Assembly (NCBI GenBank): GCA_018433865.1
Contig: JAHDQJ010000007.1
Coordinates: 1 to 64,000, forward strand
Reading direction: 5' to 3'
DNA: 64,000 nt
Origin: Spirochaetales bacterium
GTDB taxonomy: Bacteria > Spirochaetota > Spirochaetia > Sphaerochaetales > Sphaerochaetaceae
Under the pieces are notes generated by a model. It was not told the DNA's origin. It worked only from the letters and a program-made list of their open reading frames with translations, and ran no database searches. Shown one piece after another: positions 1 through 60,246 of the stretch. Both the position numbers and the translations under genes were made by a program. Numbering within the stretch: the stretch's first letter is position 1; each line of letters starts with the position of its first letter.

Positions 1-78
1 CATCCGAATTGTTTCTTCCTCCGCAACCCCCGGTCGGGCTGCCGTTACGCCATGCCCGCCGGTTGCACCCATGACCAT
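1..78 (-). CDS. Possible 5' end of an unidentified gene (partial)
   Basis: An ATG at 78 opens a reading frame that stays open for 26 codons to the window edge. The peptide begins MVMGATGGHGVTAARPG. An in-frame TGA lies about 15 codons upstream, and the sequence just before the ATG (TTTAGGG) is only a weak ribosome binding site. I do not recognise the protein and the fragment is too short to judge coding character. It could equally be part of a structured non-coding region. Confidence 0.25.
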   Translation of the reverse strand, partial: MVMGATGGHGVTAARPGVAEEETIRM

Positions 79-242
79 CCCTAAAGACCGAAAGGCCGTC
101 TTCAGACGTCACTCTCTCGGAAACCTGTCTTTCAATCGCCTCCCGTGGACTAAAGACTCCTCGCAAAACCCCTGAAAACCACTACTTTCTCAGGTGACTT
201 TTTCCCAGACGGTTGACGTACCAAATTGGCGAGAAACCGATC
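79..242. other. Short non-coding stretch between the window edge and pepF
   Basis: No reading frame with a convincing start lies here. One short hairpin-like segment (AAGACCGAAAGGCCGTCTT, about 84-102) is visible. I see no clear U-tract terminator behind pepF, which ends at 243. Confidence 0.4.
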
Positions 243-2057: not shown

Positions 2058-2667
2058 GCAGTATCTCCTTGTTCTCTATGCTTGCCAGGATCGTCAATAT
2101 CTTCCTTGCTGCGATTCCACGATGACTCACCCGGTGCTTCTCAGCGGGTGTGAGCTCAGCCATGGTCCTTTCGTTATCACCGACGAGGAACACCGGATCA
2201 TACCCGAACCCACCGTCTCCAAACGGTTTGTGAGCGATACGGCCTTCGACCGTCTCCTGCACCACATACTTGCGACTCGGAGAGAGCACGAGTGCGATCG
2301 CACAGATGAACCGTGCGCTCCTTGCTGCACCTTCGACTCCCTGCAAGTTGGAAAGCAAGTAGCGGTTCTTCTCTGGGGCATCGAGCATGCGGCCGAACAC
2401 ATCGGATCCATAGCGGGCACTGTAGATACCCGGGCTTCCGCCAAGCGCATCGACCTGAAGTCCAGAGTCATCGGCGATCGAAGGTTTTCCGGTCATCATG
2501 AAGAGGTGTTCGGCTTTGCCGAGTGCGTTCTCGATGAACGTGCTGCCAATCTCCTCGAATGAAAAGTCGATGCCGAGTTCACTCGGCATGATGATTGCAT
2601 GGGGGACGAGCAATGCAGCCATCTCCTCTTTCTTGTGTATATTCTGTGTGGCAAACATCAGTGTCAT
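2047..2667 (-). CDS. rdgB: RdgB/HAM1 dITP/XTP pyrophosphatase
   Basis: The 206-residue protein removes non-canonical purine nucleoside triphosphates (XTP, dITP, ITP) from the pool by cleavage to the monophosphate. The family motifs are in order: the N-terminal substrate loop (FATQNIHKKEE), ADDSGLQVDAL with the general-base Asp, SARYG, and FGYDPVF near residue 150. No Shine-Dalgarno sequence precedes the ATG at 2667. Instead TATGTT ends 6 nt before it, with TGGACG 17 nt further up inside the end of the sigma-like gene, so the message may be leaderless. The gene runs into pepF with an 11-bp overlap. Confidence 0.93.
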   Translation of the reverse strand: MTLMFATQNIHKKEEMAALLVPHAIIMPSELGIDFSFEEIGSTFIENALGKAEHLFMMTGKPSIADDSGLQVDALGGSPGIYSARYGSDVFGRMLDAPEKNRYLLSNLQGVEGAARSARFICAIALVLSPSRKYVVQETVEGRIAHKPFGDGGFGYDPVFLVGDNERTMAELTPAEKHRVSHRGIAARKILTILASIENKEILHVC

Positions 2668-2702
2668 GTCTTGAACATAGCCGATTTACTCGATGCCGTC
2701 CA
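2668..2702 (-). promoter_or_regulatory. Candidate leaderless promoter of rdgB
   Basis: On the minus strand TGGACG (2697-2702), a 17-bp spacer, TATGTT (2674-2679), six bases, then the rdgB ATG. The -35 box matches 4 of 6 consensus positions. A start point at about 7 nt after the -10 would fall on the A of the ATG. The -35 lies within the 3' end of the upstream gene. Confidence 0.45.
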
Positions 2703-3612
2703 TTATCTGCCGCACATATTTGTGCATCGCATGCAAGCCTGAGTCGATCGTGCCTTTGGGTACTCCGGACTTCTTGGCCAAGAGCGAATGACTCACCGGA
2801 TTCGGTCTCTTGCGCATCTGGGCTACACATGCAGCCAAATGTCGTTCCTCACGCTCCAACTTCTCCCGTACGCGTTCCATGAGGAGGGGATCCGCATGAT
2901 ACTCCTCGAGAATGACCAGTTCCTGCCTGAGGAATTGTCGTGTGCTGAAATGGCGGTTCCGTATCGATGCGAGAAACTCGGTACGTTCCCGTTTCCTCCG
3001 TGACAGATCATGCAACTCTGAGAGCTTGCGAGCCAGTGTCCGTTCATTCATATCGAGATAGCGGGCAAGGAATGTGACTTGATTTGCATTGAGTTCCTCC
3101 GAGGCAAGCAATACCAAAAGCAGGAAGCGGTTCCTGAAGGTTTTGCTGTGTTTGATCTTTTGCTTGAGGATCCTGCTTGCTTCAGAGTCCTCGCTCCATG
3201 CACATTCCTGCTCCCCGACCAGCAGGTGAGGATAATAGACTGGCGATTGGTCGGCGACATTCTCCCCATCCACATTCTCCAGGTTCCTGAAGAGGCTCCT
3301 GTATCGACGTCCCTCCCTCGCTTGCCGGCGCAACAACGATTGGGCTTGGAGATATGCGATCCGGCAGAGGTAGTTCTCGAAAGAAATCCGTTCGAAGGAG
3401 AACGTTTCGATGATCTTGCGCAACCGGTTTTCCATGAGGAGCAGGAGTTCCGAAGCATCCTCTTGCTTGAGTACCCTGATCCGTACCGGGTACGTATAGA
3501 AGATGATCCTGCATTCGTCACAGATCCGCTGGAACTCAAGTCTTCGGCGTTTCACATCCGAAGGGGGCAGGTGTTGGTAGGCCAGGACACGCATCGTCAG
3601 ATCGGACATCAT
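2686..3612 (-). CDS. Sigma-factor-like DNA-binding protein, spirochaete type
   Basis: I do not know a named family for this 308-residue basic protein. Residues about 17-100 look like sigma region 2: an acidic-hydrophobic helix (VLKQEDASELLLLMENRL) followed by FENYLCRIAYLQAQSLLRR, where a YL..i...q..s..R pattern resembles the core-binding and -10 helices. The last 40 residues contain a helix-turn-helix of region-4 type (LLAKKSGVPKGTIDSGL). The middle is rich in Arg, Lys and Glu. GGAGG lies about 8 nt before the ATG at 3612. It follows nrnA on the same strand after a 74-bp gap. A role in promoter selection or transcription control is inference; it could be another regulator with a similar helical core. 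Confidence 0.55.
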   Translation of the reverse strand: MMSDLTMRVLAYQHLPPSDVKRRRLEFQRICDECRIIFYTYPVRIRVLKQEDASELLLLMENRLRKIIETFSFERISFENYLCRIAYLQAQSLLRRQAREGRRYRSLFRNLENVDGENVADQSPVYYPHLLVGEQECAWSEDSEASRILKQKIKHSKTFRNRFLLLVLLASEELNANQVTFLARYLDMNERTLARKLSELHDLSRRKRERTEFLASIRNRHFSTRQFLRQELVILEEYHADPLLMERVREKLEREERHLAACVAQMRKRPNPVSHSLLAKKSGVPKGTIDSGLHAMHKYVRQIMDGIE

Positions 3613-3696
3613 GATGTATACCTCCGTGGGATGAAGGGTATTGCATCATGCATGCCAAATTACAAATGTATTACATGATAAGATTTTTATTTGTAA
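3613..3696 (-). promoter_or_regulatory. AT-rich leader with inverted repeat before the sigma-like gene
   Basis: The gap between nrnA and the sigma-like gene is AT-rich. TTACAAAT (about 3660-3667) is mirrored by ATTTGTAA (3689-3696), which overlaps the nrnA stop codon, with a 21-nt loop between them. It could be an operator or a weak hairpin. No U-tract follows the stem. Confidence 0.3.
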
Positions 3697-4691
3697 GAAT
3701 TTGGAGATTGTTCCAGCACAGACTTTATGGTCTCGATCAATGAAGGCTTCAGTTCCGAGAGGTTTCCCGTGACCGTCGCGCCTGCAGCCTTGCGATGTCC
3801 TCCCCCGCCAAGCTGCGCGCAAATTTTCCCCACGTCGGCAGACGAGGAGTGGGATGACCTGAGGCCAAGTTCCCAACGATCCTCTCCCATGAACTTGATG
3901 TAGAGCACCACTTCCACATCATCCACTCCGAGCAGGTGCGCATAGAGGGAATCGGAAGGACGCTGGTCAGCGCTGAATTCCTTGAGATCCTCTGGTGCTT
4001 CGACGACCACCATCAATCTTCCCTCAAGCAGCGGTTCAGCCCTGAGCAGCAATTTCCCGAGGAATTGTTGCGACTCGAAGCTGTTGCCTCCCTCCATCCG
4101 GTTGAAGATGTCGTTGGGGGAGACTCCGAGCTCGACAAGCTCACCCATCAGGTGGAACGTCTCACCGCGGTATGGCCCGATGAATTTCAAGAATCCGGTA
4201 TCGGTGGCGAGGCCGAAGAAGATATGATCAGCGATCTCATAGGTCATCTCGACCTCGAGCGCCTTGTAGAATTGCATCACACAGAGACTGGTGGAGAATG
4301 ATTTCGGTACGATATAGGAGAGGTCTCCGAACTTGGAGCCGGAGGCGTGGTGGTCGATCGTCAGGAGGGTGAGTCCATCGATCTCATCACCAAGATACCC
4401 GATGCGATCCAAGGTGGAACAATCCACCATCACCACCAATGGGTTGCGGTCGTAGAGCTGCCTGTCCACATGCGGAGCAAACAAGGGCTCGTACTGCTTG
4501 ATCTCTTTCCGTGCGAACGGACCGGCATTGACCAGGTGGACCTCGACTCCCAACCGTTGCAGGAGCTTCTGCATCGCGATCTGCGAATGGATGCAATCAC
4601 CGTCGGGGCCGACGTGCCCCACTACGATCGCAACCGTACAGCTGCGGATCTCATCGATGATCTTGGAGGGGATCTCGGGGTAGGTGAACAT
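3687..4691 (-). CDS. nrnA: DHH-family phosphoesterase, NrnA-like nanoRNase/pAp phosphatase
   Basis: The 334-residue protein carries the DHH superfamily layout: HVGPDGDC near residue 25, VDCST and IDHHASG near residues 100-120, and the DHHA1 signature GGGGHRKAAGA at the C-terminus. The expected role is degradation of RNA dinucleotides and nanoRNAs and, in many homologues, dephosphorylation of 3'-phosphoadenosine 5'-phosphate, using manganese. The ATG at 4691 is preferred to the GTG at 4694 because it stands 6 nt after GGAG. It begins 12 nt after the clpX stop, so it is probably the fourth gene of a tig-clpP-clpX-nrnA unit. Confidence 0.88.
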   Translation of the reverse strand: MFTYPEIPSKIIDEIRSCTVAIVVGHVGPDGDCIHSQIAMQKLLQRLGVEVHLVNAGPFARKEIKQYEPLFAPHVDRQLYDRNPLVVMVDCSTLDRIGYLGDEIDGLTLLTIDHHASGSKFGDLSYIVPKSFSTSLCVMQFYKALEVEMTYEIADHIFFGLATDTGFLKFIGPYRGETFHLMGELVELGVSPNDIFNRMEGGNSFESQQFLGKLLLRAEPLLEGRLMVVVEAPEDLKEFSADQRPSDSLYAHLLGVDDVEVVLYIKFMGEDRWELGLRSSHSSSADVGKICAQLGGGGHRKAAGATVTGNLSELKPSLIETIKSVLEQSPNSYK

Positions 4692-4703
4692 CACTTGCTC
4701 CGT

Positions 4704-5945
4704 TCACGCGATCTCGGCTGAATCGAATTCCAGCTCGGGCAGCTTCGATTTCTCGACCGTCTCGCGATTCACCACGACCCGCTTGATTCCCTTTCTCGAG
4801 GGAATGTCGTACATCACCTCGATCATGATGTTCTCCACGATCGATCGCAAACCGCGCGCACCCGTCTTCTGTGCGATCGACTTCTCTGCAATCGCCTCGA
4901 TCGCCCCCGATTCGAACACCAGATCGACGTTATCGAGCTTGAAGGACGCGGTATATTGCTTGATGATCGAGTTCTTGGGTTCGGTGATGATCCGCATGAG
5001 ATCATCCTTTCCCAGGTTGTTCAGCGAGACATGGATGGGCAGGCGGCCGATGAACTCGGGAATGAGCCCGAACTTGATCAGGTCGTCGGGGTGCATCTGC
5101 TTGAAAAGCCTTGCCGAATCCTTTGAATCGGCATCGCCTACCTTCGCGCCGAATCCCATCTGGTGGCTGGCGACACGCTTCTCGATGACCTTGTCGAGTC
5201 CGACAAATGCTCCGCCGCAGATGAAGAGGATGTTGCGGGTATTGATCTTGAGCATCTCCTGGTTGGGATGTTTCCTACCCCCTTGCGGAGGCACGGAAGC
5301 GTCGGTACCCTCGATGATCTTCAGCAGTGCCTGCTGGACACCTTCGCCCGAGACATCACGAGTGATCGAGACGTTCTCTCCCTTCTTCGCGATCTTGTCG
5401 ATCTCATCGATGAACACGATCCCATGCTCAGCAGCCGCGATGTCATCGTTCGCGTTTTGTATCAGCTTGAGAAGGATGTTCTCGACATCCTCTCCGACAT
5501 AACCGGCTTCGGTGAGCGTCGTTGCATCGGCGATGGCGAACGGAACCTTCAACTTCTTCGCAAGCGTCTTGGCAAGCAGCGTCTTTCCCGTTCCGGTCGG
5601 ACCGATGAGCAGGATGTTGGACTTGTCCATCTCAAGACCCTCGGCCTTGAACTGCTCCTGGAACTTCACCCGCTTGTAGTGATTGTACACCGCGACGGAG
5701 AGGACCTTCTTCGCCTCATCCTGGCCGATGACGTAATCGTCAAGATAATCGTGGATTTCCTTCGGAGTGGGAATTTCCCCAAGATAGTCATCAGGAACCG
5801 GTGCATGGCTGGGATCAGCCTTGAGGATGTCATTGCATGTGTGGATGCAATCCTCGCAGATCGCCACTCCCGGTCCGTCGATCAGTCGTTTCACCTCTTT
5901 GGAACCGCGTCCGCAGAATGAACAGACCTTGCTGCTGCGTGCCAT
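4704..5945 (-). CDS. clpX: ClpX, ATP-binding unfoldase of the ClpXP protease
   Basis: The 413-residue AAA+ protein starts with a zinc-binding domain (C8, C11, C30, C33) that recognises adaptors. The Walker A GPTGTGKT, Walker [14 protein letters not shown], the pore loop GYVGEDVE and the ClpP-docking IGF-type loop (here MGFGAK) follow. It unfolds tagged substrates and feeds them to ClpP in the cytoplasm. An in-frame upstream ATG at 6035 would add 30 residues that overlap clpP; the start at 5945 fits the family N-terminus and has GGAGAGGAG before it. It begins one base after the clpP stop. Confidence 0.97.
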
Positions 5946-5946
5946 C

Positions 5947-6555
5947 TCAACTCCTCTCCATGATCTTGTCAGCCAACCCGTATGCAACGGCTTCTCCGGC
6001 AGTGAAGAAGAAATCGCGCTCAAGGTCGGTCGCAATCGTTTCGACGCTCCTGCCCGTGTGGCGGGCGAAGTAGTCGATGCTCAGTTTCTTGATCCTGAGC
6101 AATTCGCGTGCATGAATGGCGATATCCGATACCTGGCCGTTCACACCTCCCCATGGCTGATGGATCATTACCCGTGCCGAGGGAAGGATGGATCGTTTGC
6201 CTGGAGCGCCTGCTGCCAACAGCAAGGCTCCCATGGATGCTGCCTGACCGAGGCAGATGGTCTGCACATCGCTTTTGATGTACTGCATGGTATCGTAGAT
6301 AGCCAGCCCGGCGGTCACGCTTCCGCCCGGGCTGTTGATATAGAGGCTGATATCCTTGGTCGGGTCCTCGGATTCCAGAAAGAGCAACTGAGCGACGACA
6401 ATATTGGCGACCGCAGAGTTGATTTCCTCGCCGAGGATGATGATCCGGTCACGCAAGAGGCGCGAGAAGATATCGAATGAACGTTCACCGACGCCCGAGT
6501 GCTCGATGACCACGGGGACGAGCGACGATTCCGTTTCAGTTCTTGGTACAAACAT
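5947..6555 (-). CDS. clpP: ClpP, proteolytic subunit of the Clp protease
   Basis: The 202-residue serine protease has the complete triad: S107 in GQAASMGA, H132 in MIHQPWGG and D181 in LERDFFF. The oxyanion loop NSPGGSV lies at residues 74-80. It forms the tetradecameric barrel that degrades substrates delivered by ClpX or another Clp ATPase. It follows tig by 26 nt and precedes clpX by one base, the common tig-clpP-clpX order. Only one clpP is present in the window. Confidence 0.97.
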
Positions 6556-6581
6556 ATGCCCTCCGTCGGACCAGGGGCGAA

Positions 6582-7925
6582 TCAGTGGTGGTGATCCGCC
6601 ATGAACGCTTCGTAACTGACTACCGATCCCTCTTTCATGATATTCTTCTCGATGAGGAAATCCCCGGCCTTGCGGAATTTCATCTCATCCTCGATCATGG
6701 TCCGGTAGTATGCCTTCGTTTCCTCGTCGGCGGTCTCTGGCAACTGCGCGGCGACTTCGGCGTCAAGCTCCGCAGCTTCCACCGAGAACGCTTCCTTGTC
6801 CTTGATCTTCTCCATGATCAGCTGTACCCGGATGTTCCGCTCGGCACCCTCGCGCCAGTTTGCAGTGAAATCATCCTTTGTCTGCCCCTGGAATTCGAGG
6901 AACTTGAGAACCTGGGATTCCGGCATGCCGGATTGGCTGACAAACCTTCTCCACGAGGAATCGACCTCGATATCGATCATGGAGCGGGGGACCGGGATGG
7001 TCACCTGCTCGAGGATCTTGTTCACTACGGCATTGAGCTTCGTCTCCTTCAGGTGACTCTCAAGACCATTTGCCAGCTTCTCACGGGTTGCTGAGACCAG
7101 ATCGGCGACAGTGTCGTATTTCTCGCTCACGTCCTGGGCAAACTCGTCGTCGAGCGCAGGAACCTCACGCACCTTGACCTGCTTTACCAGGATCTTGAGC
7201 GTGACCGTCTTGCCTGCGTACTCAGAATATTCGTGATCCTCGGGGAATGTCTTTTCAATGGTCTTGGTCTCGTCCTTGGACATGCCGACCAAGTCCTCGT
7301 CGATCTTGTAGAAATTGGTGCCGCTTCCTACGGTGAAGACGAAATCCTTCCGATCGGTACCTGCGACTTCGTTTCCTTCGGCATCGAGCTCGACATAGTC
7401 CAGCGTCACGATGTCGCCATGTTCGACCGGCCTGGATTTCTCGACCACCAAGGCGTTTTGCTCACGCAGTTTGTCAATCTCCTTGGTGATGGTCTCCTCG
7501 GTGATTTCCACCTGGGGAACCTCGACTTCCAGATCGGTGTAGGCGGGAAGCTCGAAGAGGGGCAGGATGTCATAGGTGACGGCGAACTGCAAGTCGGTAT
7601 CGATCGCAGTGGAGATGTTCTCCTCGTCGACAAGGCTCGGCTGGCTGTAGGGGAGGGGCTTGTACTTGTCCTCTACTGTCTTCAGCGCTTCCTGGACAGC
7701 TTCGTCGATGGTGGAATAGACGCCCTCTTCGCGCATGCCGGTACCGAATTTCTGTTCCAGCACGGAAGCGGGAGCCTTGCCCTTGCGGAAGCCGGGAAGT
7801 TGAAGTGTCTTCATGTACTTCTGCAAGACCTTGGTGTAGGACTGGGCGAGCGCCTCTTGCTTGACCGTGATGGTCAGTTCGACGGCTGAGTTCTCGAGTT
7901 CTTTGACTTTTTGTTCGGCAATCAT
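6582..7925 (-). CDS. tig: Trigger factor, ribosome-associated chaperone
   Basis: The 447-residue protein begins with the ribosome-binding domain ([12 protein letters not shown], matching the GFRxGKxP signature). A PPIase domain follows around residues 160-245 ([18 protein letters not shown]), and then the long helical chaperone arms. It binds nascent chains at the ribosome exit tunnel and acts as a peptidyl-prolyl isomerase. The reading frame is open further upstream through the tRNA cluster, but those residues are translated tRNA sequence. The ATG at 7925 follows AGAGGAAAG. The protein ends in a His-rich tail (DHHH). Confidence 0.96.
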
Positions 7926-8029
7926 CCTATTTCTTTCCTCTTTACATTGGTGTTCTCTATAGTAAGCATGCCTTTGCCTCTCGGCAAGCGCATTGCAGCA
8001 TACCCGGACCATCATAGCAAAATCCGAAT

Positions 8030-8057
8030 AAAAAAGCGACCCGGTCAACCGGGTCGC
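8030..8057 (-). terminator. Rho-independent terminator of the tRNA cluster
   Basis: A perfect 9-bp stem, GCGACCCGG / CCGGGTCGC (8036-8044 and 8049-8057), with a 4-nt loop is followed on the minus strand by six Ts. It stands between tRNA-Gly and tig and would separate tRNA transcription from the tig-clpPX unit. Confidence 0.9.
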
Positions 8058-8060
8058 CCA

Positions 8061-8132
8061 AGCGAGAGACGGGACTTGAACCCGCGACATCCACCTTGGC
8101 AAGGTGGAGCTCTACCACTGAGCTACTCTCGC
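8061..8132 (-). tRNA. tRNA-Gly (GCC)
   Basis: A 72-nt cloverleaf with acceptor GCGAGAG/CTCTCGC and discriminator T. The anticodon loop has GCC between CTT and AAG flanks, and the T-arm is GGGTTCAAGTCCC. CCA is not encoded. It is the last gene of the five-tRNA cluster. Confidence 0.95.
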
Positions 8133-8175
8133 AATCGTTCGCTGCATCTTACAGACTTGCCTGCCAAAGGTCAAG

Positions 8176-8256
8176 TGCGAGAGGAGGGATTTGAACCCTC
8201 ACACCTACGGTACTAGATCCTAAGTCTAGCGTGTCTGCCAATTCCACCACTCTCGC
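8176..8256 (-). tRNA. tRNA-Leu (TAG)
   Basis: An 81-nt class II tRNA with acceptor GCGAGAG/CTCTCGC, discriminator A and anticodon loop CTTAGGA. A long variable arm (GTACCGTAGGTGT region) and the T-arm AGGGTTCAAATCCCT follow. CCA is not encoded. Confidence 0.94.
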
Positions 8257-8294
8257 AGTGGTTGCCTTCCCGTACAGGATGGCGATGCCTTTCA

Positions 8295-8367
8295 TGAGCC
8301 GCAAAGGGATCGAACCTTTGACCCGCAGATTAAGAGTCTGCTGCTCTACCAGCTGAGCTAGCGGCCC
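8295..8367 (-). tRNA. tRNA-Lys (CTT)
   Basis: A 73-nt cloverleaf with acceptor GGGCCGC/GCGGCTC, anticodon stem GCAGA/TCTGC and loop CTCTTAA giving anticodon CTT. The discriminator is A. CCA is not encoded. Confidence 0.95.
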
Positions 8368-8390
8368 AAAACATTGTAAAAAAACACTCT

Positions 8391-8464
<74 letters not shown>

Positions 8465-47754: not shown

Positions 47755-48429
47755 TCAGCGACTCCTGACCAACTTGCCCTTGCAGAGGATTGCGTATTCC
47801 TGGATCGTCGCGATCTTGTCTGCGACGGAGACGATCACGCTCTCGGGATGACGGGGGAGGGCGAGCGTCTTGGGGAACATATGCTTGACGATGATGTCGG
47901 CCTCCAGCTCATTGACGGAAAAACAGGCCTTTGCATTGCGTAATGCGATATGGGGATGCTCCTTGCCATGTCGTGAACGCTTTTCGTCGGATGCTTTCCG
48001 CTCACGCCAGTCGTACAGGAAGAAATCGTGCAGCAGGCCGCCCCGTGCAGCCGCGTGATAGTCAAGTCCGAAAGCCTTTGCGATCACATACGACAGGTAG
48101 GAGACCCGCACCACATGATCATAGATGTGCGACGTGTGGTGAAAATGGTCCTTCAGTTTCATGAACTGCTGGTGATGCATGATATCGCCGACGATACGCA
48201 GGTACTCCCTTCGTCGAGGACGCGCGATCGCGTGCGGGATCCTGCCATTGCGTACTTGTGCGAAGTGGACGTGCGTGCCGAGCAGAAACACCAGCAGAGA
48301 GATGACGATGAACAGATATATGCTCACATCCGAGTAGAGCCTGATTGAGTGTGTGATCCGATCGGTCAGGTAGAAGCAGAACAACCCCAAGGGAAAGAGG
48401 AACAGCATCCTCAGCTGCCGATGATCCAT
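47755..48429 (-). CDS. HD-domain protein with N-terminal membrane segments
   Basis: The 224-residue protein starts with two hydrophobic segments (LRMLFLFPLGLFCFYL and YLFIVISLLVFLLG). An HD-type domain follows: HTSHIYDHVVRVSYLS, GGLLHDFFLYDW with the His-Asp pair, and a His in DIIVKHMFP. HD domains are metal-dependent phosphohydrolases, often acting on nucleotides; the substrate is unknown. The start is uncertain: the ATG at 48429 has no binding site, and GGAGG further upstream would suit only a CTG. Confidence 0.75.
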   Translation of the reverse strand: MDHRQLRMLFLFPLGLFCFYLTDRITHSIRLYSDVSIYLFIVISLLVFLLGTHVHFAQVRNGRIPHAIARPRRREYLRIVGDIMHHQQFMKLKDHFHHTSHIYDHVVRVSYLSYVIAKAFGLDYHAAARGGLLHDFFLYDWRERKASDEKRSRHGKEHPHIALRNAKACFSVNELEADIIVKHMFPKTLALPRHPESVIVSVADKIATIQEYAILCKGKLVRSR

Positions 48430-48984
48430 GATGCCTGCAACACGTGCAGCGAGTGGAATGTACAGTACGGTCCTCCAAAAACAAACTGAATCCAAATTTA
48501 TGGGAATATCGAAATCCCGTCTACCGTTTGTACATAAAGGGTGGTGCACGGTTGCGTCATGAGCATTATGACAACTTTGGTACATGCAGGTCTGCAAGAG
48601 CTTGGCAAGAGAGTATATTATTATTAATTCACCTGATTATCGTCATGTTGCATGTCAAAAGAGTTCATTAAAAATGACTTGGGAGAAACATAAAAAAAAT
48701 ATCCGATTATGATAAAATCATAAAGATATGTCATAATTAATTACTGTTCTCTTTTGTCTTTCACATCGAGAAATGTAATCAGTATAAAAGCAAATAATTG
48801 CTTTTCCACTTAACTTGTCATAACATATAAAAATTTTAGTCAATAAAAATATACCATTGATATATAAGGAATTATTAGAATTTTTGCTATTGACAGCTTA
48901 TCTGACAGTGCTAAGATTTACGGTGAAATAGGTGTTTGATTGTCATCATTGTTACGTAATCATCAGTGAATCGGAGGAACTCAC
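48430..48984 (+). other. AT-rich intergenic region with a strong promoter
   Basis: About 555 bp, markedly richer in A and T than its surroundings from about 48600 on. I find no convincing gene on either strand. TTGACA (48890-48895), a 16-bp spacer and TAAGAT (48912-48917) form a good promoter for the lipoprotein gene at 48985, leaving a leader of about 60 nt with CGGAGGA before the ATG. Many short A/T runs could bind nucleoid proteins. Confidence 0.6.
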
Positions 48985-51003
48985 ATGAGTAAAAAAATCA
49001 GGGGAATCGTGTATGCTTCTCTCTTGTGTCTTTTGTCAGTGGTAGCGCTGAGCTGTACGTTGGAGTCTTTCACTACCGGTGACCTTCACATTGTACTCGG
49101 GGATGACTCAATCGCGACCAGGACTATCGATACCGATATCGTGATGGATATCGCATACTATCGTATCGTGGGTGAAGGACCGGGTGAAACCTTCGAAGTT
49201 GAGAACCTGGAAACCGATTCCATCGTGATCGAGGATTTGGCCATCGGTACCTGGACCGTTACCGTCGAAGGCTTCAATGCCTCCGGTATTCTCATCGGGC
49301 GGGGATCCTCGAATGCCACCATCACCCGATCCGCTACGACAGAGGCATTGGTTACCGTCAGGCCGATATCCGGTGAAGGTACGCTCACCCTGGCAGTGGA
49401 TTGGACCGAAGGGATACTTTCCAATCCTTCCATTGAAGCGGCCTTGAACCTGTTCGATAGCGATGGTGAAATCGGACTTGAATTCACCCTTGAAGGCACT
49501 CATGCTAGCTACACCGGTACCATTCCTTCAGGATATTACCACTTGGAATTGACCCTGAATAATAATGATACCTTGATCTGGTCAAAGAACGCGATCGTAC
49601 GGATCGTAGCCGGTGGGACATCCGCTGCCACCTACACGATCAATCTGTTCGAAACCGGAACCGGAGCGATCGAGGTAGTGATCACGGAGGATCTGCGCAA
49701 CCCCATTCCCATCACGTTGAACGGCGTGGTGGAGAGTATCCAAGCAGGAGAATCGATCACTGTCACCGCTGAGTGTGCACAGACGCCCGATGAATTCGTC
49801 TGGTTGTTGAATGGAGAGGAGATCAGTTCCGATAGTACTACAGTCACGGTCACTCCTCCTGTCGGTACCTACTCATTGGATTTCCTCATGTACAAAGACT
49901 CCGTATATAGTTCCGAGGGATTTACGTTCAGCGTCTTGCCGATCGACCCTTCCGCAAGCTTGCAACTATACCTCAAGACCATGGCATGGGGTAGTGAGAA
50001 TTCCTGGCGGATCGACAATGCTGCAGGAACCGCAGTGGCAAGCGGCTCAGGATACTCATCGTATAATGAATACACCGTCGATCTGAGTCTGGCACCGGGA
50101 ACCTACACCTTGTATGGATTCGATTCCTGTGGAGACGGATGGTCACGATCGGTGGAACCAATGTCCTCCGTTCCCTTGTTCACGACCAGCTCTATTCCCT
50201 CCGACATGGGATACCTCAACATCACCCTTGGCTCGATGTTCCTCGTGCGGGAGTTCTATGTAGGAGCAAGCCAGGGGAGCATCACCTTCACCGTGCCTGC
50301 GTATGGAAGCGGCGAGGTGTCTGATGTACTGTGCTATGTCGATTATGATCATGCGGATAGCATATATATCCTGGGGGCGCTCGAGGCTCTTGGCTATGAG
50401 GTGACCCAGGCCTCCTCGGTGGACGATCTCAACCAAGCGACGCTTTCCGATACGTATGGGATGCTGATCATCTTCGAACAAGGCGATTGCTCGTTGGATT
50501 ACCTGGATATGAGCAATCTTGCAGGGTATATCTCTCGTGGCGGAAAGGTCATGGCAAATTCATGGTATATGAGAGAAAGCTTGGCAGCCTGCCTAGACGC
50601 TGCGTTCACCGGTAGTGTGGATTTGACCCCGATGACGATCACGGATGATTCGGTTTCTGACGGTGTGACCAATCCTGTTGCACTACGCACTGACGTATGG
50701 GCTGTTGATACCACCGGCCTCACGCCCGCATCTGGTGGCGTTTCCTTGGCAACTTTCCCTTCCAGCGAATCTGCTATCGTGTGGGGCAATGGTGGCAATA
50801 CGTTGCTTCTCGGGTTCCTGCAGGATACGGTGCCTTCCTCGGATGGCCAGAAGCTCTTCGAGAACTTGTTGCGGAAGATTGACGGCAGCACTCCGATGCC
50901 TGTCTCGTTATCGGGGCCGCGCACCGATGCACTCAAGTTCGTGGAACGCAGCGAATCGAGCATAGTCTCCGATTCCCGTACCAACAACTTGCTTGGTCTT
51001 TGA
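48985..51003 (+). CDS. Large lipoprotein, paralogous family, with a GATase-like C-terminal domain
   Basis: The 672-residue protein has lipobox ALSC (Cys24). Residues about 40-240 match the lipoproteins at 39721 and 51074, including TRTIDTDI near residue 47, IGTWTVTVEGFNASG, GEGTLTLAVDWTEG and IPSGYYHLELTL. Residues about 330-390 contain WGSENSWRID and YGFDSCGDGWS, a beta domain also seen in secreted multidomain proteins. Residues about 440-640 look like a Rossmann-type class I amidotransferase/ThuA fold (VLCYVDYDHADSIYILGALEALGYEV, GYISRGGKVMANSW) without an obvious catalytic Cys. It is probably surface- or periplasm-exposed. Confidence 0.75.
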   Translation: MSKKIRGIVYASLLCLLSVVALSCTLESFTTGDLHIVLGDDSIATRTIDTDIVMDIAYYRIVGEGPGETFEVENLETDSIVIEDLAIGTWTVTVEGFNASGILIGRGSSNATITRSATTEALVTVRPISGEGTLTLAVDWTEGILSNPSIEAALNLFDSDGEIGLEFTLEGTHASYTGTIPSGYYHLELTLNNNDTLIWSKNAIVRIVAGGTSAATYTINLFETGTGAIEVVITEDLRNPIPITLNGVVESIQAGESITVTAECAQTPDEFVWLLNGEEISSDSTTVTVTPPVGTYSLDFLMYKDSVYSSEGFTFSVLPIDPSASLQLYLKTMAWGSENSWRIDNAAGTAVASGSGYSSYNEYTVDLSLAPGTYTLYGFDSCGDGWSRSVEPMSSVPLFTTSSIPSDMGYLNITLGSMFLVREFYVGASQGSITFTVPAYGSGEVSDVLCYVDYDHADSIYILGALEALGYEVTQASSVDDLNQATLSDTYGMLIIFEQGDCSLDYLDMSNLAGYISRGGKVMANSWYMRESLAACLDAAFTGSVDLTPMTITDDSVSDGVTNPVALRTDVWAVDTTGLTPASGGVSLATFPSSESAIVWGNGGNTLLLGFLQDTVPSSDGQKLFENLLRKIDGSTPMPVSLSGPRTDALKFVERSESSIVSDSRTNNLLGL

Positions 51004-51073
51004 TTTCACGAAATAGAAAGCTTGGGGCACCGCTTGCATGGTGATGCCCCAGGTGATAGCCAAGAGGAATCGG

Positions 51074-53644
51074 ATGTCGAAGAAATCATTCGCGACGAAC
51101 ATACATATGATACTCACACTCACCGTGCTGGTGCTCTCGTTGGTCGTGGGATGCGATCATGCTGAACTCTCGAGTGACCTGGGACCGTATCGGGGAGATG
51201 TGAGGCTCTTTTTCTTTGGAGCTTCGAGCCGTACGATCGATACCGATATCGATATGCGAATCGTCTCCTATGGACTTGAGGCGATCGGCCCCAATGGATC
51301 AGAGGTTTCCCTCTCCGATATCACCGAAGAGAGTGTGTTGCTGAACAATCTGGACGTCGGGACCTGGCAGATCACCATCGATGGATACAATCCGGAGGGA
51401 ATCCGCGTCGGAAGCGGATGTGTCACCGTCCAGGTCTCCCGTGGTCTCTCTGTCCAAGCCGATGTGCACTTGGTCCCCTTGGAAGGCGAAGGTTCCTATG
51501 CGCTCGATATTACCTGGGACAGCAGCGAGGTGGGGGATCCCTCGATATCGGGACGCCTGTTTTCCCTGTCCGATGAGGATTCATCTGAGATCGCTGTCAG
51601 TTTCCATCTCCATGATGGGTTGGCCACCGCCTCCGGAACACTCGACTCAGGCTATTACGGAGTGATCATCTCGCTGTCGGACGGCGATGCGATCATCTGG
51701 ACGAAGACCGATATCCTGAGGATCGTCGCCGACGGTGATTCAGCCGCTTCCTATGCAGTCTCTGGCTCCCACGCTGACTCGGATGTCCATCCGTTGGGAT
51801 TCCTCCTGGGGTTCGCGGACAATCCCGATACGCTGTTCACCGATTCGGTAGGGGAGATAGATCAGGAATCCAGGAGGATTCGCGTGTCCGTACCGGTCGG
51901 GACCATCCTTTCCGCGTTGGTTCCCCGCTTCATCACCGAAGATGGTGTGGATCTCTATGTGGACGGCGTTCGACAGATAAGCGGTGAGTCGGTCCAGGAT
52001 TTCTCAACCGGAGTGATCTATGGGTTGTACCGGGGAGAGACGCATCTGGGTGACTATCTGGTCGAGGTCCATCCCGAGCAGACAGTCCTGGAAATCGACC
52101 GACACGGTGCTTTCAGCGTATCACTCGATTTTTCTGACGATCCGAAGGATGTCTGGTACATCCTGACGAATCCCAGTACGAACAGCAACCTGAGTGTTCC
52201 TTCGATCGGACTTGGCGCTGGGTATGTGTCAACGGATCGGTCACTGTCGGTAGCCAAGGCAGTCTCCAGGACCATGCTACCCGACATCCGGCAGAAATCG
52301 GGTGTCGATGAGTTCAACAGGCAATTGCCCTCCGCATTTCCCGCCCGGTATCCAACCAGCAGGCACCTTGCAAGTGTATCCGAGGAAATCCGGTTTGATG
52401 ATGCACGATTGTTTTCCATCGACTACCATGGCACGAACCATGTTCCTGCGATCTGCAAGAAAGTACGTACCGGCATCGATACCTTGAACGGAACGAAGAA
52501 CCTCTACATCTGGGTGGAGGAGCGTTCCTGGTCTCCCTCTGGTGATCGTGCGTTCCTCGTGACCCAGCAGATGGTCGATGTCCTGGCCGACAAGTTCCTT
52601 GTACCGGGTCCCGCGAACGACATCTATGATTGGGTCACTGCGATCTACGGCGAAGAATGGGGGGCAAGCGAATGGCCGAATCTCATCCCGGATACCGATG
52701 ACATCCATATCTTGCTGAAGGATATCGATGGGGATGACAGCACCGATGGTGGCGTGTTGGGATACTATTGGGCAAAGGACAATTACCTGGCAAGCTCGAT
52801 CTCAGGATCCAATGAATCCTTGGTGTTCTATCTCGACTCGGTGCTCCTGGCGAACCCGGATGGAACGGAATGGGAAGCCGATGACTATTGGCCGGGAAAA
52901 CAGATCTCGACATTGGCTCATGAGTTCCAACACATGATCCACTTCTATCAGAAGAACGTGCTCAGGGACGTATCGAGCGAGGTATGGCTCAATGAGATGT
53001 GTTCGCTGGTCACGGAAGACCTGGTTGCAGACAAGTTGATGCTGAGCGGTCCGCGTGGCGTTCCCGTCGCAGGCACCTTTGATTACTCCGGGGGAACTCC
53101 GGGACTCCTCGAGGGCCGGCTCCCGCTGTTCAACAGGTACAATGATCAATCGGTGAATGTCTGGTTGAGTGGGGATGAGGTATTGCGCAGCTATGCCACC
53201 GCGTATGCATTCGGAGCCTACCTCTGTAGGAACCATGGCGGAGCCACCTTGTTCAATGCCATCATGGATGCACAAGAGGGGGATCATCGGGCGATTGAGG
53301 CCGCACTGGCCACAAGTTGTCCGGATCTCACCTTCGCGGATGTGTTGGTGGATTGGGGAAAGGCAGTGGTACTCTCCGATTCGACGGATACCGAACCATA
53401 CACTTCCTACAACAACGGTTCGTGGTTTGCCAGTTCCCAGGGAGGAGTCGAGTATCACGTGGGTTCCATCAACTTGGAAAACTATTCCTATGCTTCGCAG
53501 GCTGGACCTCATCACACGATCTCCGGTACAGTCGGAAGAGGCCTGAAAGCTTCCAACGCATACTTCAAGGAGTCCTCAGTGGTACGGCGAACCTACGAAT
53601 TTTCCATTCCTGACGGGTACGTGATGACTTTGGTGGTGCGATGA
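51074..53644 (+). CDS. Lipoprotein zinc metallopeptidase, M30-like
   Basis: The 856-residue protein has lipobox VVGC (about Cys26). Residues about 50-230 are the same family domain as the two other lipoproteins (TIDTDIDMRIVSYGLEAIGPNG, VGTWQITIDGYNPEG). The peptidase part has HEFQH (H616, E617, H620) and a downstream VWLNEMCSLVTEDL supplying a glutamate ligand, as in M30/hyicolysin-like gluzincins. DIHILLKDIDGDD and WAKDNYL are other typical stretches. It probably digests proteins outside the cell. AGAGGA precedes the ATG at 51074. Its stop overlaps the next gene by 4 bp. Confidence 0.82.
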   Translation: MSKKSFATNIHMILTLTVLVLSLVVGCDHAELSSDLGPYRGDVRLFFFGASSRTIDTDIDMRIVSYGLEAIGPNGSEVSLSDITEESVLLNNLDVGTWQITIDGYNPEGIRVGSGCVTVQVSRGLSVQADVHLVPLEGEGSYALDITWDSSEVGDPSISGRLFSLSDEDSSEIAVSFHLHDGLATASGTLDSGYYGVIISLSDGDAIIWTKTDILRIVADGDSAASYAVSGSHADSDVHPLGFLLGFADNPDTLFTDSVGEIDQESRRIRVSVPVGTILSALVPRFITEDGVDLYVDGVRQISGESVQDFSTGVIYGLYRGETHLGDYLVEVHPEQTVLEIDRHGAFSVSLDFSDDPKDVWYILTNPSTNSNLSVPSIGLGAGYVSTDRSLSVAKAVSRTMLPDIRQKSGVDEFNRQLPSAFPARYPTSRHLASVSEEIRFDDARLFSIDYHGTNHVPAICKKVRTGIDTLNGTKNLYIWVEERSWSPSGDRAFLVTQQMVDVLADKFLVPGPANDIYDWVTAIYGEEWGASEWPNLIPDTDDIHILLKDIDGDDSTDGGVLGYYWAKDNYLASSISGSNESLVFYLDSVLLANPDGTEWEADDYWPGKQISTLAHEFQHMIHFYQKNVLRDVSSEVWLNEMCSLVTEDLVADKLMLSGPRGVPVAGTFDYSGGTPGLLEGRLPLFNRYNDQSVNVWLSGDEVLRSYATAYAFGAYLCRNHGGATLFNAIMDAQEGDHRAIEAALATSCPDLTFADVLVDWGKAVVLSDSTDTEPYTSYNNGSWFASSQGGVEYHVGSINLENYSYASQAGPHHTISGTVGRGLKASNAYFKESSVVRRTYEFSIPDGYVMTLVVR

Positions 53645-54876: not shown

Positions 54877-57054
54877 ATGGAAAAACAGATGACCGAGGAA
54901 GCCCTGTCGAGAATAGGGAGGATACAGGGGACCGACATCGGATTCTTCGCCCTGGCGGTTCACTCGTTCATCGAAGGCATACTCAGGGAGCGCTATCATC
55001 TGTCGTACGGGGAGGGATCCGACTCCTTTCCCAGCCTGGTGTTCAGGCTCAAGGACGACAACCCCGGTAACTGGGATATCTCCAGGTTCTGTCACGATGT
55101 CGTGCAAGCCCACCATGAGGTGAACGAGGTACGACATCTGTTCAAGGAGTGCAGCAGGGACACCGCCCTGGTGGCAATCTCACACTTGCAATTTTTCTGT
55201 GCCACCCTGGGGTTGACCCCGAGCAGGGCCTTGAGTGATATCGCGAGTCGCATGGAGGCCCTGTGGTCCATCCGTGAATCGCTTGGGAACCTTTTCGAGG
55301 AAAAACAGCGATTGCAACTGCAACTGACGAATGCATTGTCCGAGAATAGCGAACTGTCCAAGAGCCTCGGGAAACTGTCCGGTATCGAAGAAGAGACGCG
55401 GGTGATGGAATTTCAGCTCGCACAGTTGAATGTACAGATCGGGCAACTGGAGAAGGGCAAGCTGAAACAGAAGGAGAAGATCGAACAGCTGCGGAAGGAA
55501 CGGTGGGAGTTGAATGAGCAGCTGCGAGCTCAAGCACAACAGTATGAGCCCGTGCACCGCTACGTGTCGGTCATGAGAAGCATGACCCTCTACACCCGCA
55601 CCCGAGGAGATTACGAACGCATGATCGTGCGACTCACTGCTGAGCAGAAGGGGATATTGGAGCGTATCCGACTCGACAGCGATTTCCTTGTCAAAGGCGG
55701 GGCAGGGACGGGAAAGACCCTGGTGCTCCTGAAAGGCATCGAGAAGATGCTGGGTCGGGGGGAGCAAGGTGAGTTGCACTTGGCCGATCGTACCGAAACC
55801 GTTGCGTTGGTGACCTTCACGAAGACACTGACCAAATTCAACCGATATCTTGCCCATATCATGAAAGGTGATGTTCCCGAAGATACCATCAGTACTGCAC
55901 ACTCTTTCCTCTTGCAGAGGATACAGGAGGCAGACGGGAGATGGTCCGCACTCCCGATCGATCAGCACCGATCCCTTGAGGAGATCTGCGACCGATACGC
56001 GACCGAGTCTTTTTCCGGGAAGGACATATTCCAGGAAATCCTCATTTTCCTCTGGGGAAACGATATCACGGAAACCGAGTACATCGATCTGATGATCGAG
56101 CGTACCGGGATGGGCAAGCCGTTGCAGAAACACGTACGCATGATCGTCTGGAAGGCGAAGGAGGAGGTGGAACGGCTGATCGAGCAGACGCATCGGGTTC
56201 CGTTCCAGGCTTTTGCACCGTTCTTGCTCAGGCTGCTTGACGATGAGTCTGTCGCAGCACGTATTTCCCGGTTCGACCATATTTTTGTCGATGAGGCGCA
56301 GGATTTGTCTGCGGCGGTACTCAAGAGCCTGAAGCGATTGGCTAAACGCGGCGTGATACTCTCGGGAGATGCCGATCAGTCGATCTACCAACCGGGGTTC
56401 ACCTATGTACGCGCAGGGTTGGACATCCAAGGGAAGACCCACATCCTCCGCACCAATTTCCGCAATACCGTGCAGATCCATGCGTTGGCAGAGCACTTCA
56501 GAAGTGGTTCCGCATCCGCAGGACCATCGGTCACCACTGCATTCAAGGATGGCCCCATGCCCGAATTGCACGTGGATTGCCGAGCCGATGCACTGCGTAC
56601 CAGGCTGTGGGAGCGAGCATGCTTTTTCACCGATGCGTTGGGCTATGATCCCGCAAACATTTGCATCATCGTTCCCTCCAAGACTGACTTCGGGCATTTC
56701 AGTTCTTTTGCGGCGGAGTCGGACGTACAAGTCATGAGCATCGTGGATGAAAAATTCTCCTTCGAAGAGGAGCAGCGCAACGTAATGCGCATGACGACCT
56801 TGCACTCGGCAAAAGGATTGGACTTCCCCGTGGTGCTGCTCTTCCTGACTGGGGAGACGAAATCCTCCGAAGCCTACGACCAGACGGTACATGAGACCCT
56901 TTCGCGCAATCTGATCTATGTGGCGATGACTCGTGCGATGGAACACCTGCAAGTGTTCGTACTGGAGGATCCGGGAAACAAGATCCTTGGGGATGTGAAA
57001 ACCTGTTTCCGCGATATCCGACCGAATGAGGTCACGAGGCCTGCCATCGATTGA
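54877..57054 (+). CDS. SF1 (UvrD/PcrA-like) helicase with HEPN-like N-terminus and coiled coil
   Basis: Residues about 1-130 of 725 are helical (FFALAVHSFIEGILRERYHL, VRHLFKECSRDTALVAISHL) and resemble DUF4145/HEPN-like domains. Residues about 145-220 form a coiled coil rich in Leu, Glu and Lys. The helicase core follows: GGAGTGKT (G274-T281), DEAQD (D472-D476), GDADQSIYQ, LRTNFRN, TLHSAKGLDFPVV and YVAMTRAMEHL. It should translocate on single-stranded DNA. GGAGG precedes the ATG at 54877. The nuclease gene follows after 29 nt, so the pair probably acts together. Confidence 0.85.
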   Translation: MEKQMTEEALSRIGRIQGTDIGFFALAVHSFIEGILRERYHLSYGEGSDSFPSLVFRLKDDNPGNWDISRFCHDVVQAHHEVNEVRHLFKECSRDTALVAISHLQFFCATLGLTPSRALSDIASRMEALWSIRESLGNLFEEKQRLQLQLTNALSENSELSKSLGKLSGIEEETRVMEFQLAQLNVQIGQLEKGKLKQKEKIEQLRKERWELNEQLRAQAQQYEPVHRYVSVMRSMTLYTRTRGDYERMIVRLTAEQKGILERIRLDSDFLVKGGAGTGKTLVLLKGIEKMLGRGEQGELHLADRTETVALVTFTKTLTKFNRYLAHIMKGDVPEDTISTAHSFLLQRIQEADGRWSALPIDQHRSLEEICDRYATESFSGKDIFQEILIFLWGNDITETEYIDLMIERTGMGKPLQKHVRMIVWKAKEEVERLIEQTHRVPFQAFAPFLLRLLDDESVAARISRFDHIFVDEAQDLSAAVLKSLKRLAKRGVILSGDADQSIYQPGFTYVRAGLDIQGKTHILRTNFRNTVQIHALAEHFRSGSASAGPSVTTAFKDGPMPELHVDCRADALRTRLWERACFFTDALGYDPANICIIVPSKTDFGHFSSFAAESDVQVMSIVDEKFSFEEEQRNVMRMTTLHSAKGLDFPVVLLFLTGETKSSEAYDQTVHETLSRNLIYVAMTRAMEHLQVFVLEDPGNKILGDVKTCFRDIRPNEVTRPAID

Positions 57055-57083
57055 TGGAAATAGGTGTGACAAGGGAGGAGCAC

Positions 57084-59066
57084 ATGAATGCCGACCGGTA
57101 TCTGACGAAGTCCCGTTTCAGGCTCGCACAAGAGTGTCCGACCAAACTTTTCTACACGAACAAGCCATACTATGCCGACCAGAAGATCGACGATGATTTC
57201 CTGCTCGCCCTCGCGGAAGGCGGATTCCAGGTAGGCGAGCTGGCCAAGTGCTATGTTCCCGAAGGAAAGGAAATCACCACACTGGACAAGGATGAGGCGT
57301 TGGCTCTGACACGCAATCTGTTGGAACTCGGGCATGTCACGATTTTCGAAGCGGCCATCCGATACGAAGACTTTTTCATCCGTGCCGATATCCTGGTGAA
57401 AGATGGGCGGCGGATCGACTTGTTTGAGGTGAAATCGAAATCGATCGACGGTGACGGTGATGCCAACTTCCTTACCAAGCGCGACCGGAGGATCACCAGT
57501 GAATGGTTACCATACCTGGAAGACATCGCATTCCAGAAACATGTGGTTTCCTCAGCCTTTCCCGAATGCGATGTACACGCATTCCTGATGCTCATGGACA
57601 AGAACAGTGTGTGTCCCTCCGAGGGGTTGCACCAGAAATTCAAGATCGTAAAGGATGGACACGGAAGAAAGCGTGCCGAGCGGGTCGGTCGCCTCTCCGA
57701 GACCGAACTCTCCGAACGTCTTCTGGTAGCTATTCCCGTGGACACCTATTGCTCGATGATCTTTCAGGCACGATACGGCGAAGAAGGCGCGTTGAGTTTC
57801 GTCGAACTTGCGGATTTCTATGCCGCGAGTTACCGGGAAGACAGGAAGATCCCTCCCAGGATAACGGGCGAGTGCAAGACCTGTGAATTCAGGACGAACG
57901 AAAGTTCCGGTCCTCATATGAAAAGCGGATACCATGAGTGTTGGAAAGAGGCTCTTGGGTGGACCGACGAGGATTTTCTTGCACCTACGGTCCTCGATAT
58001 CTGGAACTTCAGGAGAAAGCAGGAGCTGCTCGACCAACGTATCGTCAAGATGTCGCAGGTTGACAAGCGGATGATCGATCCTGATGGGAAAAGCGGACCG
58101 GAAGGATTGTCGGTTAAGGACCGACAGTGGTTGCAAGTCCAAAAGGTCCGCACAGGCGATTCACAACCGTGGGTCGACCGTGCGAACCTGCGCAGGCAGA
58201 TGGAGAGCTGGACATATCCCCTGCACTTCATAGATTTCGAGACGACCCTCACCGCCATCCCGTTCAACAAGGGACGACACCCCTATGAGTTGCTTGCTTT
58301 CCAGTACTCGCACCATACGGTCGATGCTGATGGACGCATAGCCCATGCAGGGCAGTATCTGCATACAGCTGTCGGCGATTTCCCGAGTCATGAGTTCCTG
58401 CGACACCTCAAGCGGGAACTCGACCGTGACGAAGGGACGGTCTTCCGCTATTCGCATCATGAGAATACCGTATTGAATACGATCCACCGACAGCTCGAAG
58501 AGGATCCCTCCCAAAGCGACCGTGAAGAACTGTGTGCATTCATACGCTCACTCACCCAATCGGGACGGGCAAGCGATATCCAATGGATCGGTTCCCGGTC
58601 GATGGTGGATATGTGCGAGTTGGTGAAACGGTATTGGTACGATCCGGCGACACGGGGTTCAAACTCGATCAAGCAGGTGCTGCCCGCCATATTGAACGGA
58701 TCGGCGTACCTCCAAGAGAAATACTCCGAGCCGATCTACGGAACTGAGGAAGGGATCCCGAGTCACAACTTTCGCGATCACAGATGGGTCACCTGGGAGA
58801 AGGGGAGGGTTGTCGATCCGTATAAGCTGTTGCCCAAGATGTTCTTGGACGTGTCGGATCAGACGCAAGAAATCCTGCTGATGAGCGACTCGGATGACCT
58901 GCACAATGGCGGAGCTGCCTTGACCGCCTATTGCAGGATGCAGTTCGAAGAGATGTCGGCATATGAGCGCCAGGAGATTTCCAAGGCCTTGCTGAAATAT
59001 TGCGAGTTGGATACCTTCGCGATGGTGATGCTCTATGAGGGGTGGTGTGAGATGGTTCGATCATGA
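57084..59066 (+). CDS. DUF2779-type double nuclease: Cas4/RecB-like plus DEDDy exonuclease
   Basis: Residues 1 to about 290 of 660 look like a Cas4/AddB-type PD-(D/E)xK nuclease with an iron-sulfur site: C18 in ECPTK, active-site D102, E115 and K117 (FEVK), and C264, C267 and C286 late in the domain. Residues about 375-650 carry a DEDDy exonuclease pattern: D384 and E386 in FIDFETT, a possible middle Asp in SMVDMCELV and Y639-x3-D643 in YCELD. The C-terminal part fits DUF2779. GGGAGGAG precedes the ATG. It lies in an operon with the SF1 helicase. A joint DNA-degrading or processing role is inferred. Confidence 0.78.
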   Translation: MNADRYLTKSRFRLAQECPTKLFYTNKPYYADQKIDDDFLLALAEGGFQVGELAKCYVPEGKEITTLDKDEALALTRNLLELGHVTIFEAAIRYEDFFIRADILVKDGRRIDLFEVKSKSIDGDGDANFLTKRDRRITSEWLPYLEDIAFQKHVVSSAFPECDVHAFLMLMDKNSVCPSEGLHQKFKIVKDGHGRKRAERVGRLSETELSERLLVAIPVDTYCSMIFQARYGEEGALSFVELADFYAASYREDRKIPPRITGECKTCEFRTNESSGPHMKSGYHECWKEALGWTDEDFLAPTVLDIWNFRRKQELLDQRIVKMSQVDKRMIDPDGKSGPEGLSVKDRQWLQVQKVRTGDSQPWVDRANLRRQMESWTYPLHFIDFETTLTAIPFNKGRHPYELLAFQYSHHTVDADGRIAHAGQYLHTAVGDFPSHEFLRHLKRELDRDEGTVFRYSHHENTVLNTIHRQLEEDPSQSDREELCAFIRSLTQSGRASDIQWIGSRSMVDMCELVKRYWYDPATRGSNSIKQVLPAILNGSAYLQEKYSEPIYGTEEGIPSHNFRDHRWVTWEKGRVVDPYKLLPKMFLDVSDQTQEILLMSDSDDLHNGGAALTAYCRMQFEEMSAYERQEISKALLKYCELDTFAMVMLYEGWCEMVRS

Positions 59067-59106
59067 TATGGATGTGTGGGACAAGGAAAGGTTGAGAGGA
59101 TAGGAA

Positions 59107-59391
59107 ATGGAACAGACACAGGGAAACCCGGTGAGAAAGGTCTATCTGACGGCATGTTGGGGTAACGGTGATGCATCGTCGGATACGGTCGTCACGGAAG
59201 CAAAATGGCTAAAGATCGAAGAGGGATTGCGCTTCTCCAAAGGTGCGTATGCATGGTATGAGGGGAAGCGGTACCATGTCACGTGGTCTTTCAACCAGCG
59301 GGAGGAGGGTTCGTTCAGCATTGACGGAGACGATGGCCGGCAATGCATCGTGGAAGCTCCGCTATCGGAAATCCACGTGAGTGAACATTGA
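59107..59391 (+). CDS. Small protein, third gene of the helicase-nuclease cassette
   Basis: The 94-residue acidic protein (KVYLTACWGNGDASSDTVV, YAWYEGKRYHVTWSFNQREE) has no motif I know and looks like a small beta fold. AGAGGA lies before the ATG, 40 nt after the nuclease stop, so it should share the transcript. It could be an accessory or regulatory subunit, or unrelated. Confidence 0.6.
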   Translation: MEQTQGNPVRKVYLTACWGNGDASSDTVVTEAKWLKIEEGLRFSKGAYAWYEGKRYHVTWSFNQREEGSFSIDGDDGRQCIVEAPLSEIHVSEH

Positions 59392-60172: not shown

Positions 60173-60246
60173 TCGGGCTGGGCGGATTTGAACCGCCGAC
60201 CCCAAGTCCCCCAGACTTGTACGCTAAACCCCTGCGCTACAGCCCG
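60173..60246 (-). tRNA. tRNA-Pro (GGG)
   Basis: A 74-nt cloverleaf with acceptor CGGGCTG/CAGCCCG, anticodon stem CAAGT/ACTTG and loop CTGGGGG giving anticodon GGG. The T-arm is GGCGGTTCAAATCCGCC and the discriminator is A. CCA is not encoded. Confidence 0.95.

Follow-up and report, generated by a model that had tools for sequence, protein, structure and literature searches.

Both the UvrD-type helicase and the DUF2779 double nuclease encoded side by side in the 64,000-nt stretch of DNA analyzed here (the window) belong to real families of patchily scattered accessory genes, and their pairing in the window, seen in no other genome examined, is a one-off combination of known part types, possibly an anti-viral device. 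In our best reading, the helicase is a scattered, defence-associated protein that is found with interchangeable nucleases, and it is this helicase, not the pair, that constitutes the most interesting lead. The features considered are the following:

54877-57054, plus strand: SF1A (UvrD-type) helicase gene, 725 aa (assigned by Pfam, homologue alignments, a structural model and a fold search)
57061-57083, plus strand: helicase/DUF2779 spacer region (29 nt), with the Shine-Dalgarno-like run AAGGGAGGAG ahead of the DUF2779 start
57084-59066, plus strand: DUF2779 protein gene, 660 aa (assigned by Pfam, alignments, a structural model and fold searches)
59107-59391, plus strand: orphan ORF, 94 aa, 40 nt downstream of the DUF2779 gene and co-directional with it

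The reading of the ORFs confirmed the three genes of the original prediction, with gaps of 29 and 40 nt, and profile scans of the neighbours likewise placed pcm and blc at the flanks, on the opposite strand. Purine runs resembling Shine-Dalgarno sequences precede all three starts (GGAGGT, AAGGGAGGAG and AGAGGATAGGA, respectively), and the one in the spacer between the helicase and DUF2779 genes would be compatible with co-transcription of the two. The third gene had been presented as a protein without assignment, and an orphan it is: the 94-aa product matches no family, and a search of the phylum sample (393 genomes) returned no homologue; neither a role in the system nor membership of the operon is supported for it. 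The idea that the locus is an inserted cassette was not supported either. No flanking direct repeat or duplicated tRNA end was found at the locus, the GC content and third-position GC of the pair equal those of the neighbouring genes, and, since synteny with the two other genomes of the genus (both of which lack the helicase and the DUF2779 gene) is lost around pcm, no empty site can be demonstrated. No defence genes were recognized around the window's copy of the two genes. A tRNA-Pro gene at 60173-60246, just past blc, was the sole match of an Rfam scan of the 47-64 kb region of the window; it is a possible integration target, and a duplicated end of it was not found. Elsewhere in the window, local GC dips to 0.425 at 48001-49000, against about 0.55-0.57 for the window, and two large genes for lipoprotein-like products, alike at the N-terminus (TRTIDTDI), lie in tandem at 48985-51003 and 51038-53644; a HEFQH motif in the latter suggests a secreted metalloprotease.

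The assignment of the first protein to the SF1 helicases was borne out by its Pfam matches (PF00580, E=5e-18; PF13361, E=1.6e-8), its motifs and its fold. It comprises a helical bundle (about residues 1-110), a coiled coil (about 117-236) and a two-lobed core (about 253-700) in which Walker A (GGAGTGKT, 274-281), motif II (DEAQD, 472-476) and the motif VI arginine (R686) are intact, and all SF1 motifs are invariant in alignments of 25-26 homologues. The model of the whole protein (pLDDT 83) contains five N-terminal helices up to about residue 110, followed by the coiled coil, and its predicted fold is that of PcrA/UvrD (Foldseek E=2e-17). The protein thus shows the Walker A motif, the DExxD motif II, the motif VI arginine and the UvrD fold by which UvrD/SF1A helicases are recognized. 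Its best PADLOC match is GajB (E=5e-25), the helicase of an anti-phage pair.

The second protein matches DUF2779 (PF11074) over residues 381-528 with E=5.6e-20 and 72.3 bits, the gathering cut-off being 23.3. Its N-terminal, Cas4-like half (about 1-300) carries D102, E115-x-K117, Q151 and the cysteines C18, C264, C267 and C286, and its C-terminal half (about 376-660) carries the DEDDy exonuclease residues D384/E386 (DFE), D509 and Y639/D643 (YCELD). The motif residues of both halves and the four cysteines are invariant in alignments of 15 and 16 sequences, whose members are 25-57% identical to the window protein. The model of the whole chain (pLDDT 86.6, pTM 0.85) has Cas4 and MGME1 as its top structural matches, led by Cas4 (8d3l_I; Foldseek prob 1.00, E 2.8e-3, the best of the modest E-values obtained for the whole two-domain chain), and the region of about 376-660 matches the exonuclease domains of family-B polymerases (Z 13.7, rmsd 3.1, 184 residues). 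The two nuclease signatures originally read in this protein were therefore recovered, each half is predicted to adopt a nuclease fold, and the invariant catalytic residues together with the Cas4 and polymerase-exonuclease fold matches give good support to both. Sequence and fold combine in the N-terminal half into a PD-(D/E)XK core with the D, ExK and Q residues and four cysteines in a 1+3 arrangement, as in Cas4-type Fe-S nucleases; as PF01930 is not matched at E 1, this half is a member of the Cas4 fold and not of the PF01930 family. A sequence-only search of the DUF2779 profile against the PDB and a PADLOC scan of the protein returned no match. The architecture itself, Cas4/DUF83 plus an RNase H-like exonuclease, was described in 2014 (PMC3985635), when Majorek et al. 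listed COG2251 and DUF2779 together as DUF83-containing and noted the resemblance of DUF83 to PD-(D/E)XK nucleases (PMC3985635). The open-access papers found contain no established function for the DUF2779 family.

Of the 393 genomes sampled from the phylum, 21 encode relatives of the helicase and 9 relatives of the DUF2779 protein; the former also occur in 15 of the 101 nearest relatives, the latter in 16 of 395 genomes of the class and in other phyla too. As is common among accessory genes, both families include broken copies (helicase: L046, L099, L101 and L104; DUF2779: L026, L064 and L148). Plasmid homologues of either protein are few, and none were found in phages or viral contigs. We examined the flanks of 30 genomic helicase loci, one plasmid helicase locus (L073) and 43 DUF2779 loci. 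DUF2779 adjoined the helicase in 0 of the 30 genomic loci and not on the plasmid, and the helicase adjoined DUF2779 in 0 of the 43, in a sample whose helicase loci are almost all from a single phylum and which includes four DUF2779 contigs that start within the gene. As the pair is not conserved, the link between the two proteins rests on their adjacency in one genome. The conserved three-gene cassette of the original prediction, which had itself named a lack of conservation of the gene pair as one of two refuting outcomes, was thus contradicted within this sample, the pair being adjacent in no other locus and the small gene being without relatives. Two genomes (G351 and G437) encode both proteins on different contigs. 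In the phylum sample, the helicase is present in 3 of 9 genomes with DUF2779 versus 18 of 384 others (p=0.009); leaving out the window's own genome, the count becomes 2 of 8 (p=0.06), the two remaining genomes sharing one genus, and we do not find the co-occurrence convincing.

Ordinary neighbours lie beside most of the helicase relatives; others directly precede DNA-processing genes or overlap them translationally. At locus L047 (1590-7105), a gene 20 nt 3' of the helicase encodes a 1110-aa protein with RNase_H_2 and AAA_11/AAA_12 domains (the COG2251 architecture), to which the DUF2779 protein is only weakly related in a profile comparison (prob 44); this locus holds a second, analogous pairing of helicase and exonuclease, independent of that in the window. 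Overlaps of 4 nt join the helicase to a UvrD-PDDEXK_1 fusion that also scores as Cas_Cas4 (L091), to the DISARM gene drmD, which in turn overlaps drmMI (L098), and, on the plasmid (L073), to a DruE-like DEAD/MZB helicase. Furthermore, an HNH nuclease gene lies 57 nt downstream of the helicase in L093, and Cas3/Cse1 lies 71 nt downstream in L056. In L098 (G401, 1-8443), the helicase relative is placed as if it were an extra DISARM component, and the contig ends there. In L096 (6084-6647) and L101 (5497-6075), a possible partner family of about 190 aa, without a Pfam match, is encoded 36 nt downstream of the helicase. PADLOC matches (1e-15) were obtained for 6 of the 14 close downstream partners compared with no more than 7 of 52 further genes in those loci (Fisher one-sided p=0.02; p=0.05 without the plasmid locus), a small effect in a test defined after the data had been seen. 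The control genes also included matches to AbiEi, a type II restriction enzyme and TIR, so these surroundings as a whole are slightly enriched in defence genes. That members of this helicase family repeatedly stand immediately ahead of unrelated nucleases and known defence genes points to a loading motor that can be reused. The stronger version of this idea, one motor for many nucleases, would have the conserved helical N-terminus and coiled coil act as an exchangeable dock for effectors, nucleases or helicases, of unrelated kinds (DUF2779, COG2251, UvrD-Cas4, DISARM DrmD/DrmMI, DruE, HNH and Cas3), and many defence systems would share the family as a loading module; we consider it unlikely.

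Among the DUF2779 relatives, the gene immediately follows SbcD-SbcC in L015, L061 and L148, all of them spirochaete-type loci, and lies on a conjugative plasmid in L071, near type I restriction genes in L072 and after an Eco57I methylase gene in L026. It adjoins HipA in L139, where the neighbours were scanned, and L140-L144 have similar neighbours. Many other DUF2779 genes appear to be single genes amid unrelated neighbours. An Arcobacter plasmid likewise carries SbcD-SbcC genes upstream of one for DUF2779 (PMC6690266), and this plasmid and the three spirochaete-type loci point to a possible SbcCD-DUF2779 unit.

Taken together, these results lead us to propose, tentatively, that the helicase and the DUF2779 protein form an accessory module of two genes which degrades or resects DNA starting at the ends, with defence against invading DNA as the likeliest purpose. 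UvrD-type helicases move 3'-5', Cas4 nucleases contain an Fe-S cluster and for the most part degrade single strands in the 5'-3' direction, and DEDDy domains digest 3'-5', like the proofreading domains of polymerases. The helicase would load at a free DNA end or gap and unwind 3'-5', the Cas4-type half would trim one strand and the DEDDy half the other, and, because the two trimming domains would act on opposite strands, both strands of a linear intermediate would be consumed. The helicase itself would be a generic motor set beside different nucleases in different genomes, in the window beside DUF2779, and its helical N-terminus and coiled coil may serve as a sensor or docking part. Defence is the favoured purpose on account of the partners of the helicase and the patchy distribution of the genes.

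The strongest rival of this proposal, and nearly as likely, is that two independent accessory genes, for a UvrD-like helicase and a Cas4-DEDDy exonuclease that each work alone, are adjacent by chance. The two families are apart in every other locus read, including the two genomes that hold them on separate contigs, and DUF2779 genes often appear to stand alone; against it, the two genes of the window lie on one strand at a spacing of 29 nt, with a good ribosome-binding site, nuclease and helicase partners recur beside the helicase, and the analogous pair of L047 involves the RNase_H_2 family that the literature groups with DUF2779 (PMC3985635). A role as a helper in repair or recombination of the host chromosome (end resection, mismatch or gap processing) instead of defence is less probable than either. 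It would be in keeping with helicase-nuclease chemistry such as that of AddAB/RecBCD, with the position of DUF2779 beside SbcCD and with the Clostridiales operon of UvrD and Cas4-like genes, which its describers judged to be non-defence (PMC5704561), but, in contrast to core repair genes, the two are uncommon, patchily distributed and in some cases broken, and several of the genes that partner the helicase belong to restriction or defence. In addition, the genome of the window encodes a RecB/AddA-like protein of 1172 aa elsewhere, and the pair is therefore probably not its sole means of processing DNA ends.

It is also conceivable, if very improbable, that the system is abortive and armed with a HEPN domain, the N-terminal bundle of the helicase being a toxin-like RNase that is released when the helicase-nuclease fails. 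The original prediction had described this N-terminus as HEPN/DUF4145-like; its helical nature and the coiled coil were upheld by the model, and the HEPN identity found no support in sequence profiles. The idea was a reasonable one, since fusions of DUF4145-type HEPN domains to UvrD helicases have been published (PMC3710099), and the homologue alignment does show a conserved TNxVRHxF motif in the helical N-terminus. However, the Pfam profiles of HEPN and DUF4145 (PF13643) matched none of the 25 homologous N-termini even at E 5, and a profile of this region found no HEPN match among PDB sequences at E 10, and none that was convincing. Besides, the classical R-x4-6-H motif of HEPN was not seen by eye, the consensus having Thr in place of Arg before the conserved Asn.

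Returning to the joint module as the preferred reading, cooperation of the two proteins would make them a minimal degrader, in which a helicase is coupled to a single chain with two exonuclease domains, presumably of opposite polarity; the catalogues searched contain no helicase-nuclease machine of this form, whether for defence or for resection. Should the two genes act independently, the window contributes a further patchy member to the DUF2779 family.

As originally claimed, no named defence system has this set of domains, there being no GajA, no AddB and no fused helicase. The further claim that it is undescribed stands in part: the DUF2779 architecture and its resemblance to COG2251 have been published, as have operons and fusions of UvrD with Cas4 (PMC3985635, PMC5704561), whereas the open-access literature searched yielded no description of the helicase family with its conserved N-terminus and changing partners, nor of its pairing with DUF2779. 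Like Gabija, the window has a stand-alone UvrD-type helicase, with GajB as its best PADLOC match, and a partner nuclease. GajA, however, combines an ATPase with a TOPRIM (OLD) nuclease, and the protein adjoining the helicase has neither domain, only PF11074 and no PADLOC match, so identity with Gabija was rejected. AddAB/RecBCD likewise join an SF1A helicase to an Fe-S nuclease of the Cas4/AddB type, but the window pair has no AddB/RecC scaffold and adds a DEDDy exonuclease; Pfam finds no nuclease domain in the helicase and no helicase domain in its partner, and identity with AddAB was rejected as well. Fusions of UvrD to Cas4 (pfam12705) have been assigned to defence loci as an ancillary module of several systems (Hudaiberdiev et al. 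2017, PMC5704561), and an unfused operon of UvrD and Cas4-like genes is known in Clostridiales (PMC5704561). These fusions share the UvrD-type helicase and the Cas4-like nuclease with the window and differ in being single proteins with a pfam12705 nuclease and no DEDDy domain, whereas the window has separate genes and no PF12705 match; in L091, a protein of this very architecture is itself the partner of the helicase family. The second protein of the window is a member of the DUF2779 (PF11074) family, which includes the mycoplasma UU173 family and whose members in other loci are single genes, follow SbcCD or have HipA or methylase genes nearby, and do not accompany this helicase. Finally, the COG2251/TM0106-type proteins likewise bring together a Cas4/DUF83 nuclease, an RNase H-like exonuclease and an SF1 helicase activity (PMC3985635), but they do so in one polypeptide with AAA_11/AAA_12 and PF13482, neither PF13482 nor AAA being matched by the DUF2779 protein in the Pfam scan, whereas the window encodes its UvrD-type helicase separately and has an exonuclease of the PF11074 family.
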